From contig NC_051083.1 in NCBI RefSeq assembly GCF_004664715.2, forward strand, positions 115,206,534-115,270,533: 64,000 nucleotides of DNA, written 5' to 3'. This document shows positions 2,315 through 57,685 of this stretch, one piece after another (position 1 is the first letter of the stretch; every line of letters begins with the position of its first letter). The position numbers were made by a program, and so were the translations under genes. The notes under the pieces are model-generated. The model made no database searches and had not been told where the DNA came from. It worked only from the letters and a program-made list of their open reading frames with translations. The DNA is from Peromyscus leucopus (Eukaryota > Chordata > Mammalia > Rodentia > Cricetidae).

Positions 2315-3238
2315 TTAGAGACTGTGCCTCAATGTTTTCTTTAAGGCAGCTTTCACTTCCTGATTTCTCAAACTGTAGATGAGAGGATTTAACATAGGGA
2401 TCACCATGGTGTAAAACACCGAGACCATCTGATTTCCTGCTTGAGACCCATGCCGAGAGGGCTGCAAGTACGTGTACATAGTGGTTCCGTAGTACAGAGC
2501 AACTGCAGTCAAGTGGGACGCACAGGTAGAGAAGGCTTTCTGCTTGCCAGAAACTGAAGGAATACCCATGATAGTCAGGAATATAGATGTGTAGGAGACA
2601 AGAATTACCATGACTGAGGTGACAAGGGTAAATCCCCCACAGCCAACAACCAAGATCTGGGTTACCCAGGGATCAGAACAGGCCAATGCCAGCAGTGGGG
2701 GGATATCACAGAAGAAGTGTGAGATGACATGTGGTTGGCAGAATGACAGTTGTGTGATGGAACTTATTACAGCAACCATGTTAAATAATCCACCAAAGTA
2801 ACATACTGCTATCAAAAGGAGACAGCGAACTCTTGACATGGTAATATGATAAAGCAATGGCTGACAGATGGCAGTATAACGGTCATAGGCCATGGAAGCC
2901 AAAACATTACATTCAGCAGAAGCAAAGATTATGAACAAGCCCATTTGAGCCATACATCCAAAGAAAGAAACTTCCTGTAGCTGAGATAATAAGTTGGCTA
3001 AAGTCTTTGGGGTTGTGATGGAAGAGAAACAGATATCAAGGAAAGACAGATTCGACAGAAAAAAATACATAGGTGTGTGGAGATGGTGGCTGACTTGAAT
3101 CAGTACTACCAGGCCTAGGTTCCCCAGCACAGTGATGAAATAAATAACAAAAAAGAGTCCAAAAAGTAGGACTGCAAGTTGATGGTTATCTGTCATTCCA
3201 AGTAGGATGAATTTAGTCTCTGCAGATGAATTCTCCAT
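2315..3238 (-). CDS. Intact class II olfactory receptor
   Basis: Odorant-binding seven-transmembrane GPCR of olfactory neurons, expected to signal through the olfactory G protein. The frame is complete at 307 residues, normal for the family, and has no internal stop or frameshift. Visible hallmarks are an N-glycosylation site N3-S-S; GN at 39-40 in TM1; LHTPMYFFLSNLSFLD at 53-68 (intracellular loop 1/TM2); Cys95 at the start of TM3; MAYDRYTAIC at 116-125 (the DRY region); extracellular loop 2 cysteines 167, 177 and 187; SY at 215-216 in TM5; KAFSTCASHL at 234-243; and PMLNPLIYSLRN at 281-292 in TM7. Short extracellular loop 2 and HTPMYFFLS indicate class II. The start was chosen because the MENSS N-terminus is family-typical and lies 49 nt after a strong splice acceptor. 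Coding in one exon is normal for these genes. The subfamily is uncertain (the family 5/8/9 clade is my guess), so no symbol is given. It is the only receptor in the window. Confidence 0.96.
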   Translation of the reverse strand: MENSSAETKFILLGMTDNHQLAVLLFGLFFVIYFITVLGNLGLVVLIQVSHHLHTPMYFFLSNLSFLDICFSSITTPKTLANLLSQLQEVSFFGCMAQMGLFIIFASAECNVLASMAYDRYTAICQPLLYHITMSRVRCLLLIAVCYFGGLFNMVAVISSITQLSFCQPHVISHFFCDIPPLLALACSDPWVTQILVVGCGGFTLVTSVMVILVSYTSIFLTIMGIPSVSGKQKAFSTCASHLTAVALYYGTTMYTYLQPSRHGSQAGNQMVSVFYTMVIPMLNPLIYSLRNQEVKAALKKTLRHSL

Positions 3239-10870: not shown

Positions 10871-10876
10871 ATAGGC

Positions 10877-11148
10877 TGTAGTGGGTAGCCATTCCAGCTT
10901 GGATCTGGAAGTTTTAACCCCCATTGAGACTCTGGCAACTGTCATGCCTACGAGGCGGGGCCAGGGGAGGCGCCTAGAGACCCAAGAGCTGGATGGGCCA
11001 GTGCTCTCTCTGTGTCGGGATGCTGAACGGTGAAGGTGGACTGTGTAGAGCTCCGGAGAACACCGTTGGATTGTAATACACCTTCCCCAGACCCTGCGAC
11101 CTACCTTTTACTTAATATGTGAGTTACGCCATTAAATAAATATCCTTT
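10877..11148 (+). mobile_element. Left LTR, 5' portion (U3-R)
   Basis: Reads from TGTAGTGGGTAGCC through ggcggggccaggggaggcgc to the cattaaataaatatcc region, which carries an AATAAA-type signal. It is interrupted at the T-run by an L1 3' UTR and resumes at about 12008 (aactacgtggagtggcc). Confidence 0.8.
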
Positions 11149-12007
11149 TTTTTTATTTACAACACCATTCAGTTCAACATAATAGCCACAGATTCCCCTG
11201 TTCTCCCCCTTTCACCCCCCTCCCCTCCCCCCAGCCCACCCCCATTCCCACCTCCTCCAGATCAAGGTCTCCCCCAAGGACCGGGATCGACCTGGTAGAC
11301 TCAGTGCAGGCAGGTCCATTCCCCCCCTCCCAGACTGAGCCAAGTGTCCCTGCATAAGTCCCAGGATTCAAACAGCCAACTCATGCAACGAGCCCAGGAC
11401 CCGGTACCAACGCACAGCTGTCTCCCAAACAGATCGAGCCAAATGACTGTCTCACCCATTCAAGGGGCCTGATCCAGTTGGGGGCCCCTCAGCCTTTGGT
11501 TCATAGATCCTGTGCTTCCATTCATTTGGTTATTTGTCCCTATGATTTATCCAACCTTGGTTTCAACAATTCTCGCTCATATAGCTCATATAAACCCTCT
11601 TCTTTCTCACTAATTAGACTCCCAGTGCTCCACCAGGGGCCCAGCCGTGGATGTCTGCATCCAGATTCCTCAGTCCTTGGATGGGGTTTATGGCACAACT
11701 ATCAGGGTGTCTGGCCATCCCTTCACCAGAGTAGGTCAGTTCCTGCTGTCTCTCGACCATTGCCAGCAGTCTTTTGCGGGGGTATCTTTGTGGATCTCCG
11801 TGGGCCTCCCTAGCTCTCTGCTTCCTCCCCTTCTCAGGTGGTCTTCATTTACCATGGTCTCCTATTCCTTGTTCTCCCTCTCTTTTCTTGATCCAGCTAG
11901 GATCTCCCACTCTCTTTCCCTCAACCTTCGCCCTTCATTGTTCCCACTCCTGACCAGGCTGTTCATGTAGATCTCGTCCATTTCTCCGTGTCTTTTTTGG
12001 GGTCCCG
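11149..12007 (-). mobile_element. 5'-truncated L1 (3' UTR only), antisense
   Basis: Poly(T) at the left, then a C-rich tract (complement of the L1 3' UTR G-rich tract), then landmarks shared with the complete sense copy at 22275-23170: gacctggtagactcagtgca, gggggcccctcagcctttgg, tttcaacaattctcgctcat, gaccattgccagcag. It is inserted inside the left LTR of the inverted-LTR element, so it is younger than that element. No clear target-site duplication is visible because both junctions lie in T-runs. Confidence 0.85.
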
Positions 12008-12067
12008 TTTTTAACTACGTGGAGTGGCCAAAATAATTTCTCCAAAATCTGGCGCCCAACGTGGGGC
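12008..12067 (+). mobile_element. U5 end and tRNA-Lys primer binding site
   Basis: The rest of the left LTR (aactacgtggagtggcc...) ends at 12049. It is followed by TGGCGCCCAACGTGGGGC (12050-12067), exactly complementary to the 3' 18 nt of tRNA-Lys(CTT) including CCA. After 18 nt the sequence diverges from the tRNA complement, which is what normal reverse transcription gives when it halts at the methylated A58. Confidence 0.85.
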
Positions 12068-12112
12068 AAACCCCAAAGGCCTGGGTGGCTCTCGCCCTCC
12101 CCCCCACCTTTT

Positions 12113-12259
12113 GAGAGAGCGCACAGAGAGAGCACTGGCCCATCCAGCTCTCGGGTCTCCAGGCACCTCCCCTGGCTCCACCTCGTAGGCGTGACAGTTG
12201 CCAGAGTCTCAATGGGGGTTGGAACTTCCAGATCCAAGCTGGAATGGCTACCCACTACA
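12113..12259 (-). mobile_element. Right arm: inverted partial LTR (U3)
   Basis: About 147 bp, reverse-complementary to the first half of the left LTR (ctctcgggtctccaggcacc, acagttgccagagtctcaat, ctacccactaca). It stops in the ctctct region of the LTR. The 45 bp between the primer binding site and this arm (12068-12112) includes a C-rich run and I cannot assign it. Confidence 0.8.
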
Positions 12260-12364
12260 ATAGGCCTCAAATACGACACTAAGTAGTTATCTTCCTTTTG
12301 GCTAATAAAACCTGTTTTCTTATCTACTGCTTCTCCATTTAAAAACTAAGAGACTGGTGTTGGC

Positions 12365-46289: not shown

Positions 46290-46295
46290 GAGAAT
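46290..46295 (+). repeat. Target-site duplication, left (GAGAAT)
   Basis: Six bases directly outside the left U3 end, matching GACAAT at 47375-47380 at five of six positions. Confidence 0.7.
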
Positions 46296-46618
46296 TGTAG
46301 TGGGTAGCCATTCTAGCTTGGATCTGGAAGTTCCAAGCCCCATTGAGACTCTGGCAACTGTCACGCCTATGAAGTGGGGCCAGGGGAGGCGCCTGGAGAC
46401 CCAAGAGCTGGATGGGCCAGCGCGTTCTCTGTGTGCTCTCTCTGTGCCGGGACCCTGAACGGTGGAGGTGGACCGAGCAGAGCTCCAGAGAACACCGCTG
46501 GATTGTGATACACCTTTCCCAGACCCTGCGACCTACCTATCACTTAATTTGTGAGTTACACCATTAAATAAACATCCTTTTAACTACGTGGAGTGGCCAT
46601 AATAATTTCACCAATATC
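46296..46618 (+). mobile_element. Left LTR
   Basis: TGTAGTGGGTAGCC, ggggaggcgcctggagaccc, cgggaccctgaacggtggag, ccattaaataaacatccttt (AATAAA signal), aactacgtggagtggccata, ending ...ccaatatc. It is directly followed by T-rich sequence rather than the primer binding site found in copy 1. Confidence 0.88.
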
Positions 46619-46945
46619 TTTTATTTTTTTTTTATTTTTTTAATGTTGACTTCTTTACTGGCTGCTCTGTTCTTTCTTTTCCACATTAACTACCCTGTCC
46701 ACAGTTATTCCTATGTCCTCCAGTGACAAGCCTCCCTCCGCATCCAGAGGCCTTCTGGGAAAGGAAGTGGAAAGGCTGTATAGGGATTTGTGGTACCCAA
46801 TTTTCATCATCCAGTCAAATAAGACTTGTGAATTCCATGACTTGAAAAATCTCCTCCTCAAAACTTGCCCACTTGGGAAGCGAAGGGCAACAGTAACTAC
46901 CTCTTCAGCTGTTTCTGAGGGTTCTTCAGGTAAATTTGGTTTTAA
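46619..46945 (-). pseudogene. Ubxn8-ps: Ubxn8 processed pseudogene fragment (UBX domain)
   Basis: On the minus strand a cDNA-like segment encodes the C-terminal end of UBXN8, an ER-membrane UBX-domain protein that recruits p97/VCP for ER-associated degradation. The frame runs from a LPEEPSETAEEVVTVALRF-like lead through the UBX domain (FPRRPLDAEGGLSLEDIGI) to a stop at 46655-46657. About 16 nt later comes an A-rich tail on the minus strand (T-rich 46619-46641 on the plus strand). It is intronless, 5'-truncated, and open over the visible part. No target-site duplication surrounds it. Its poly(A) end abuts the U5 end of the left LTR, and its truncated 5' end abuts a partial B1. The family assignment is from memory of the UBXN8 C-terminus and is fairly firm. 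Confidence 0.8.
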
Positions 46946-47018
46946 GCCGGTGGTGGTGGCACATGCCGGTAGGATTTGTTGAAGGAGGTGGAGGCAGGAG
47001 GATCACAAGTTCGAACCA
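46946..47018 (+). repeat. Partial, diverged B1 SINE
   Basis: GCCGGTGGTGGTGGCACATG, then a disrupted middle, then ggaggcaggaggatcacaag and ttcgaacca. It ends where B1 would read ccagcctgg; the overlap GCC/GCCYGG with the tRNA 5' end is a microhomology at the junction. Confidence 0.7.
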
Positions 47019-47094
47019 GCCCGGCTAGCTCAGTCGATAGAGCATGAGACTCTTAATCTCAGGGTCGTGGGTTGGAGCCCCACGTTGGGCGCCA
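47019..47094 (+). tRNA. tRNA-Lys(CTT)-like sequence with CCA, fused to LTR U5 (pseudo-tRNA)
   Basis: 73 nt from G1 (GCCCGGCTAGCTCAG) through anticodon loop ACTCTTAATC (CTT anticodon) to discriminator G at 47091, then CCA (47092-47094). It matches mammalian tRNA-Lys(CTT) along its length, with two visible changes: a G to A in the D loop (TCGATAG) and a C to G in the T loop (GGGTTGGAG, damaging B box position C56). The 3' 18 nt equal the primer-binding-site complement. CCA is not genomically encoded in mammalian tRNA genes; here it leads without a gap into LTR sequence GATATTGGTGATA. This is best read as a reverse-transcribed copy of the primer tRNA, not a resident gene. Transcription is doubtful given the B-box change. 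Confidence 0.88.
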
Positions 47095-47374
47095 GATATT
47101 GGTGATATTATTATGGCCACTCCATGTAGTTAAAAGGATATTTATTTAATGGCGTAACTCACAAATTAAGTGATAGGTAGGTCGCAGGTTCTGGGAAATG
47201 TATATCACAGTTCAGGGTCCCAGCACCGAGAGAGTGCACAGAGAACGCGCTGGCCCATCCAGCTCTCGGGTCTCCAGGCGCCTCCCCTGGCCCCACCTCA
47301 TAGGTGTGACAGTTGCCAGAGTCTCAACGGGGGTTGGAACTTCCAGATCCAAGCTGGAATGGCTACCCACTACA
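47095..47374 (-). mobile_element. Right LTR, inverted
   Basis: Reverse complement of the left LTR from its U5 end (GATATTGGTG) to its U3 end (CTACCCACTACA). It lacks about 43 bp in the middle relative to the left arm (the segment around ggaggtggaccgagcagagc). Confidence 0.88.
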
Positions 47375-47380
47375 GACAAT
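47375..47380 (+). repeat. Target-site duplication, right (GACAAT)
   Basis: Partner of GAGAAT at 46290-46295, with one mismatch. Confidence 0.7.
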
Positions 47381-54041: not shown

Positions 54042-54211
54042 TTTTTTTTTTTTTTTTTTTTTTGGTTTTTTCGAGACAGGGTTTCTCTGTGTAGCTTTGC
54101 GCCTTACCTGGAACTCACTTGGTAGCCCAGGCTGGCCTCGAACTCACAAGGATCCGCCTGCCTCTGCCTCCCGAGTGCTGGGATTAAAGGCGTGCGCCAC
54201 CACTGCCCGGC
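54042..54211 (-). repeat. B1 SINE, cricetid-type, antisense, with target-site duplication
   Basis: T-run, gagacagggtttctctgtgt, agctttgcgccttacctgga, gccaccactgcccggc. The agctttgcgcctt variant is, from memory, characteristic of cricetid B1. TTGTCATTTT occurs before the T-run and again right after the element (about 54213-54222). Confidence 0.93.
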
Positions 54212-57437: not shown

Positions 57438-57590
57438 TGAGCCAGGCAATGATGGCACACACCTTTAATCCCAGCACTCGGGAGGCAGAGGCAGGTGGAT
57501 CTCTGTGAGTTCAAGGCCAGCCTGATCTACAGAGCGAGATCCAGGAAAGGCACAAAGCTACACAGAGAAACCCTATCTCAAAAAACCAAA
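57438..57590 (+). repeat. B1 SINE
   Basis: gagccaggcaatgatggcac, tttaatcccagcactcggga, ggatctctgtgagttcaagg, aaagctacacagagaaaccc, then tail aaaaaccaaaaaagaagaag that grades into the GAA tract. Confidence 0.95.
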
Positions 57591-57685
57591 AAAGAAGAAG
57601 AAGGAGGAGGAGGAGGAGAAGAAGAAGAAGAAAAGAAGAAGAAGAAGAAGAAGAAGAAGAAGAAGAAGAAGAAGAAGAGAGTAGA
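57591..57685 (+). repeat. (GAA)n/(GGA)n purine tract
   Basis: Nearly 100 bp of uninterrupted purines grown from the B1 tail: GAA units, a GGA block at about 57600-57620, then long GAA repeats. Confidence 0.97.

Follow-up and report, generated by a model that had tools for sequence, protein, structure and literature searches.

Within the window, that is, the whole stretch of 64,000 nucleotides of Peromyscus leucopus DNA that was analysed, positions 46296–47374 are occupied by an inverted-LTR structure, termed element A below. A reading made from the sequence alone had described it as a plus-strand LTR, an antisense UBXN8 cDNA, a partial B1, a tRNA-Lys(CTT) with its CCA and a minus-strand LTR, and this composition proved to be real as judged from the sequence, BLAST, ARAGORN and Rfam. 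The left arm, an LTR with U3, R and U5 (46296–46618, plus strand), ends at the last base before the position of the primer-binding site (PBS) (..CCAATATC). It is followed by a T-rich run (46619–46641, plus strand), which we take for a poly(A) tail copied in complement, the UBXN8 cDNA in antisense orientation (46642–46944, minus strand), the 5′ part of a B1-like SINE (46945–47014, plus strand), the letters ACCA (47015–47018, plus strand; TGGT in the direction of tRNA copying) and a 76-nt tRNA-Lys(CTT) with CCA (47019–47094, plus strand). The right arm (47095–47374, minus strand) is an inverted LTR with a 43-nt internal deletion, and has the complement of the U5 end directly after the tRNA copy. 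As inverted repeats, the two arms show 93% complementarity over 169 and 122 nt. The tRNA is complete, as had been claimed: the ARAGORN span is exactly 47019–47094, and the Rfam tRNA match scores 57.5 bits (E = 2.9e-11). The near-identical flanks of the earlier description were also found, namely GAGAAT (46290–46295) on the left and GACAAT (47375–47380) on the right, which agree at 5/6 positions, one base being different.

Two details of that description fared less well. The SINE piece has at least 36 genomic matches at 87–96% identity, which begin at query positions 311–328 and end at 391–394, so a SINE fragment is indeed present; the plain label of a partial B1 does not hold, however, the identity to one ordinary B1 being 76% over 45 columns. 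The switch through a 3-nt GCC microhomology, proposed for the junction with the tRNA, is not supported, since the SINE matches stop at 391–394 (47012–47015 of the window) and ACCA precedes tRNA base 1.

The identity of the cellular cDNA was confirmed by a UBX domain in the antisense frame (PF00789, 61.6 bits) and by 12 protein matches, in which the named proteins were UBXN8 and the others hypothetical proteins. Query positions 26–204 and 203–281 match contig C15 at 97% and 94% in two blocks 2.24 kb apart; as these blocks are contiguous in element A, with the junction near 46825, the template of the cargo was spliced. The match to the parent gene begins at query 26 (46647), so the T run at 46619–46641 falls outside it. 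An intronless UBXN8 copy at C7:110093482-110093752, 94% identical to the cargo over query 42–313, is probably an independent retrocopy; because of this match a transcribed retrocopy, rather than the spliced mRNA of the parent gene, could conceivably have been the source of the cargo.

A BLAST search of element A against the window revealed a second inverted pair of the same LTR at 10877–12259, element B, between exact ATAGGC duplications (10871–10876 and 12260–12265, 6/6). Its left arm comprises U3 and R (10877–11149, plus strand; 86.7% to element A over 286 columns) and is separated from U5 (12005–12049, start approximate, plus strand; 93% to element A over 42 nt) by the 3′ part of an L1 in antisense orientation (11150–12004, end approximate, minus strand), which is 81% and 85% identical to two other L1 stretches in the window. 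U5 is followed by the 18-nt PBS (12050–12067, plus strand), by about 45 nt of the start of the family 5′ leader (12068–12112, plus strand), resembling the sequence after the PBS in loci L053 and L056, and by the right arm, the first 147 nt of U3 in inverted orientation (12113–12259, minus strand; 93.9% to element A over 147 nt). The right arm forms with the left one a 138-nt inverted repeat of 94%. The L1 lies at TTTT/AA, which is a typical L1 target, and about four to five T are repeated on its far side; it may be a later ordinary L1 insertion, and with such a site and only these few repeated letters we set it aside, undecided, as proof of template capture. Rfam gave two matches in the leader region of element B, both below the gathering score. 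Element B has no full tRNA copy and nevertheless has U3 at its ends, from which it follows that U3-U3 products do not need complete read-through of the tRNA.

In both elements the PBS position adjoins U5 as in standard LTR elements, as the PBS itself at 12050–12067 in element B and as the tRNA joined to the right arm in element A. The overall layout is not that of a provirus, in agreement with the earlier claim: direct LTRs with one U3 and one U5 outside are absent, and elements A and B, as well as nine others described below, are inverted with U3 outside. When the outer flank of each arm of A and B was compared with the 6-mers at the inner end, as would be appropriate for a solo LTR, the matches did not exceed 4/6; hence the flanks of A and of B point to one event each, with two outer U3 ends. 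All five LTR stretches detected in the window (nhmmer, E up to 1) lie within A or B. Elsewhere in the window we noted an inverted repeat pair at 54050–54211 and 57441–57602 (162 nt, 85% complementary, 3.2 kb apart) and a minus-strand ORF of 307 amino acids at 2315–3238 that looks, by eye, olfactory receptor-like.

To place the two elements within their family, the LTR was used as a query against the 2.475-Gb assembly, where 40 scored candidates out of 4804 found at first look gave 41 matches. Thirteen of these are solo LTRs whose U3 and U5 ends are flanked by an exact 6-bp duplication; L043 and L045, two of the thirteen, have identical flanks. Further matches are 3′ LTRs that follow a purine tract or 5′ LTRs that precede a PBS and leader, and at least three belong to U3-U3 elements (the left LTR of element A and both arms of L057 on contig C11). 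In ordinary genomic copies the LTR ends with CAATA, two bases (TC) before the PBS. We considered that the U5 end of this family might be unable to integrate, so that only U3-U3 products would insert, and rejected it on the evidence of the solo LTRs that end with CAATA and have exact 6-bp duplications. Some copies are of other kinds. L060 (C8:60146300-60150300) and L061 (C18:60970500-60975500) are very short copies with direct LTRs: in the former the 5′ LTR runs into the 3′ interior without a PBS, in the latter the left LTR breaks off at base 163, where the 3′ interior takes over, and L048, with its left LTR cut at 149, resembles L061. These three look like other aberrant strand-transfer products. 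L031 and L033 were marked for an inverted U3, with one mismatch each. A scan for relatives elsewhere gave one match with 18-mers in viral contigs and 25 with 16-mers in genome contigs, none of which aligned to element A at E ≤ 1e-3.

Copies of the tRNA primer extending past A58 are common in this genome. A 35-nt pattern that runs from the PBS through A58 to tRNA base 42, and whose count covers this span only and not the rest of the tRNA or the adjoining LTR, occurs at 372 genomic places with at most two mismatches; its reversed control occurs at none. A 117-nt query consisting of the tRNA, CCA and the U5 side yielded 2917 candidates, of which 40 were scored and 30 loci returned. The LTR stretch adjoins the tRNA copy in 30/30 loci, and the tRNA was copied from its 3′ CCA to base 1 in all of them except L098, L099 and L101, which are one or two bases short; this completeness is partly selected, because the 30 loci are the best matches to a query that holds the whole tRNA. 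Locus L058, found through its LTR, has a tRNA copy five bases short. After the tRNA copy the sequence differs in most of the 30 loci, which speaks against a single inherited LTR-tRNA unit. The exceptions are L093/L094 and L086, L098 and L100, the last three of which land in the same leader region. L093/L094 (C3:141144037-141144991) is one tandem array of units made of an LTR and a full tRNA copy, and L094 was omitted both from the comparison after the copy and from the table of letters opposite A58 as part of the L093 array. Poly(T) stands directly after tRNA base 1 in L082, L105, L107 and L057. In 8/31 copies tRNA base 1 is followed by TGG, the complement of CCA, versus 0.5 expected for random letters, which may reflect copying of a tRNA 3′ overhang during a jump.

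The far ends of the 30 loci fall into seven U3-U3, seven U3-U5 and 16 without a far end found within 1.5 kb. The U3-U3 cases are element A with 5/6 in its duplication and L085, L086, L087, L092, L098 and L101, all with 6/6, the duplication of L085 being the low-complexity match GGGGGG. The U3-U5 cases are L081, L084, L096, L097, L103 and L105 with 6/6 and L088 with 5/6. No duplication was found at the ends of L100 and L107. The tRNA copy of L087 leads into the final 11 bases of an inverted U3 and no more, and then into the duplication; the right arm of this locus has 14 matching nt. L057 consists of U3-R-U5, PBS, a complete tRNA copy, a long T run and inverted R-U3, all between exact TATGAC repeats. 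Two further elements, L109 and L110, fetched for close inverted matches to the 117-nt query and counted outside the seven of 30, are 92% and 91% identical to their own reverse complements. The left arm of L110 ends exactly at the U5 terminus; next come the letters ACACA, then the complete tRNA in sense orientation and the whole of an inverted LTR, an arrangement equal to that of element A without cargo; L109 has a short irregular junction. L083 goes beyond a U3-U3 element in complexity: after its LTR with full tRNA comes an inverted LTR that is bordered by leader at one end and by the complement of a purine tract at the other. In L102 the flank 6-mer recurs five bases after the tRNA.

The sequence-only reading of element A presupposed that inverted-LTR copies exist elsewhere, and ten further U3-U3 elements were found, element B in the window and nine outside it. 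U3 is present at both ends in 11/11 elements, and the 6-bp duplication is exact in 10/11, element A being the one with 5/6. When flanks were crossed between elements, 0/110 pairs agreed within one mismatch and the best had two, hence the matching 6-mers outside the two U3 termini are not due to chance. The arms likewise pair within elements: over 110 nt, their mean divergence is 3.0% within an element versus 8.5% between elements, and 0/20,000 random re-pairings gave a value as low (nine elements; L087, with its short right arm, and L110 were left out). The arms of L098 differ by one mismatch and one gap in 341 columns and those of L086 by three mismatches and one gap, and as such arms are almost identical, some of the U3-U3 elements must be young. 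If the proportion of 7/30 held for all 372 places, about 87 such elements, or about 0.002 per 64-kb window, would be expected, with the reservation that the 30 loci were not sampled at random; the presence of both A and B in one 64-kb window is far above this genome-wide estimate and was unexpected.

The tRNA copies are marked by the letter that stands opposite A58. In 31 copies (33 rows minus the two rows of L094) this letter is A in 23, C in four, the correct T in four and G in none, i.e. it is wrong in 27/31, and departures are concentrated in this one column, the other 57 copied columns having 23 departures in 1767 cells (1.3%). Exact 35-mer counts over the whole genome are A 90, C 11 and G 0, and the first 100 exact matches listed have A in 82, C in 10 and T in 8. 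Three places found with a pattern that excludes CCA-bearing copies, putative tRNA genes, all have T (genes with a preceding G fall outside this pattern). Base 59 of the tRNA is G in these copies; for m1A followed by G, PMC4787781 describes a low C signal in template letters, i.e. few G in cDNA, and the zero count of G genome-wide is what would be expected in such a context. For HIV-1, PMC13191261 states that synthesis of the plus strand usually halts ahead of m1A58, that a tRNA lacking the modification is copied as far as its 5′ terminus, that extension beyond A58 takes place in cells with a mutant m1A58 methyltransferase, and that only the shorter products serve as active templates, the full-tRNA product (P1) being unusable in the next step. 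On the strength of these statements and of the letters themselves, the wrong letters probably are a fossil signature of m1A58 misreading, and their mixture suggests that the template of read-through was mostly modified tRNA. The sequence-only reading of element A is supported; element B, the hundreds of read-through copies and the A58 signature common to them lay beyond it.

Considering the U3 at both ends, the 6-bp duplications, the complete tRNA copies, the spliced cargo of element A, the recurrence and the odd base opposite A58, all of which were observed directly, we regard it as quite probable that A and B are single integrations of aberrant reverse-transcription products of an endogenous retrovirus with a tRNA-Lys(CTT) PBS, whose inner parts arose by read-through and template jumps and which had two U3 ends. 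In such a mechanism, reverse transcriptase making plus-strand strong-stop DNA would read through m1A58, misinserting mostly A, and continue to tRNA base 1, giving a product unfit for the normal second strand transfer. On reaching the end of the template it could jump to the U3 of another strong-stop DNA or to an RNA, be it a poly(A) tail, a few bases of a tRNA 3′ overhang, a SINE RNA or leader RNA. Elements of the U3-U3 type would be completed when synthesis ran off a second plus-strand strong-stop DNA at its 5′ terminus, and the resulting double-stranded DNA, bounded by U3 on both sides, could be inserted by integrase with the usual 6-bp stagger. The jumps at template ends, the run-off on the second strong-stop DNA and the use of two U3 ends by integrase are steps that we infer, the last of them from the ends and the 6-bp duplications. 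In element A, the left arm would have reached as far as the U5 terminus and then proceeded along the tail of a UBXN8 mRNA, and on the right side copying would have covered the full tRNA and then a SINE RNA up to the 5′ terminus of the latter, both arms meeting in the middle; in element B, the left part may have proceeded into the PBS and leader and then switched into an inverted U3. The central idea of the earlier reading, in which the inner ends of two plus-strand strong-stop DNAs became joined, one DNA having copied the full tRNA and the other having continued at the poly(A) of a UBXN8 mRNA, and their two U3 ends served for integration, is favoured by the wider evidence, and the order of the steps given here is a conjecture. 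Against the reading of A and B as single integrations of such products stand the 5/6 flanks of element A, the 16/30 loci in which a far end was not found, the purine-tract complement after the second LTR of L083, the ends of L100 and L107, the partly selected completeness of the tRNA copies, the lack of a full tRNA in element B, whose L1 may have come later, and the unexpected presence of two elements in one window.

The main rival to template jumps is host end joining: two U3-ended DNAs would have been completed separately and their inner ends joined by the host, as in 2-LTR circles, with cDNA fragments caught between them, before integrase acted on the two U3 ends. The 5-nt ACACA between the exact U5 end and tRNA base 1 of L110 and the short irregular junction of L109 are of the kind that end joining can make; by contrast, the poly(T) directly after tRNA base 1 in four loci, the TGG in 8/31 copies and the SINE piece of element A, which starts at or near its own 5′ end, would fit the copying of template ends better, and we consider host joining rather unlikely as the general route. 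That the arms are two independent LTR insertions, or a rearranged provirus, which face away from each other by chance is a possibility of very low probability. Ordinary solo LTRs of this family are common, yet the outer flanks match each other in A and B while the outer and inner ends agree at no more than 4/6, the arms pair within elements, and the tRNA copy is joined directly to the LTR, all of which contradicts independent insertions. Inverted terminal repeats with exact duplications would also suit an inherited transposon-like family with long terminal inverted repeats. The right arm, however, ranges from 14 matching nt in L087 to a full LTR, the interiors differ and the arms are closest to their own partners, which makes this explanation extremely improbable; a DNA transposon with terminal inverted repeats was rejected for the same variation in arm length and interior and the same pairing of arms, inherited repeats of fixed extent with related interiors being absent.

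The letters opposite A58 could have a source other than misreading of m1A58, namely a variant tRNA gene with T58 or G58 or a genomic leader sequence. The first base after the 18-nt PBS is in fact A in L053, L056 and element B, and only three gene-like tRNA-Lys(CTT) places were seen. All three have T, however, the letters in the copies are a mixture (as counted above), tRNA sequence continues beyond A58, and the scarcity of G fits the m1A-G context as described in PMC4787781; such a source is accordingly improbable. An assembly artefact deserves mention for inverted repeats, which are hard to assemble, the more so with one assembly only. It is nonetheless hardly credible for eleven places that lie on different contigs or far apart and have exact duplications.

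Taking single integration of aberrant reverse-transcription products as the preferred reading, we find it fairly likely that the genome preserves, as an archive, hundreds of records, many of independent origin, left by retroviruses that read a single host tRNA, with the misreading of m1A58 retained down to the letter. In this archive DNAs described as dead ends would regularly have been rescued into the germ line, U3-U3 about as often as U3-U5 (seven and seven of 14 among the 30 loci), and would have been able to carry host mRNA. Strong-stop DNAs with the whole tRNA, placed head to head, with a copy of a host mRNA between them in one case and inserted by two identical viral ends, appear to be DNA fossils of a step that has been regarded as a dead end. 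With numerous natural events available in a single genome, two retroviral rules become testable, the stop at m1A58 that defines the plus-strand end and integration by U3 plus U5. In the A58 column, nature would have recorded the way in which an ancient reverse transcriptase dealt with a modified base of a tRNA, and the junctions would show which templates were available in the particles, i.e. poly(A) RNAs, SINE RNA, leader RNA and other strong-stop DNAs. LTR palindromes and chimeras of LTR and tRNA, which might pass in annotation as solo LTRs plus tRNA pseudogenes, could also be explained by such a class. Among the titles and abstract openings listed from the open-access literature, we found neither U3-U3 inverted endogenous insertions nor integrated tRNA copies with the A58 signature, though a prior report may exist, for instance in preprints or subscription papers, and a search of paper texts for strings of the LTR sequence gave 0 matches.

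Solo LTRs and direct-LTR proviruses of the same family share with the elements described here the LTR and the 6-bp duplication, and differ from them in having one U3 and one U5 end. Damage to the U5 ends of retroviruses reportedly leads to aberrant integrations in which one or both ends are not the normal U3/U5 pair; the family described here, in contrast, has a normal U5, and its inverted elements carry a proper U3 with duplication at either end. DIRS-like elements also have inverted terminal repeats; they employ a tyrosine recombinase and are not known to make a target duplication, whereas the present elements have a 6-bp duplication and a tRNA-primed LTR. In LTR-mediated retrocopies, as outlined in PMC5408686, template switching likewise connects a spliced host mRNA with the DNA of an LTR element, and this trait is present in element A; their cDNA, however, lies between direct LTRs formed by the normal scheme, whereas element A combines inverted LTRs and two U3 ends with a complete tRNA. 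A further product to compare is P1 of HIV-1, which, according to PMC13191261, is made on a template unmodified at A58 and is unusable for strand transfer; in this genome, by contrast, 27/31 wrong letters suggest a modified template, and such products, with mixed letters opposite A58, were integrated in the germ line.
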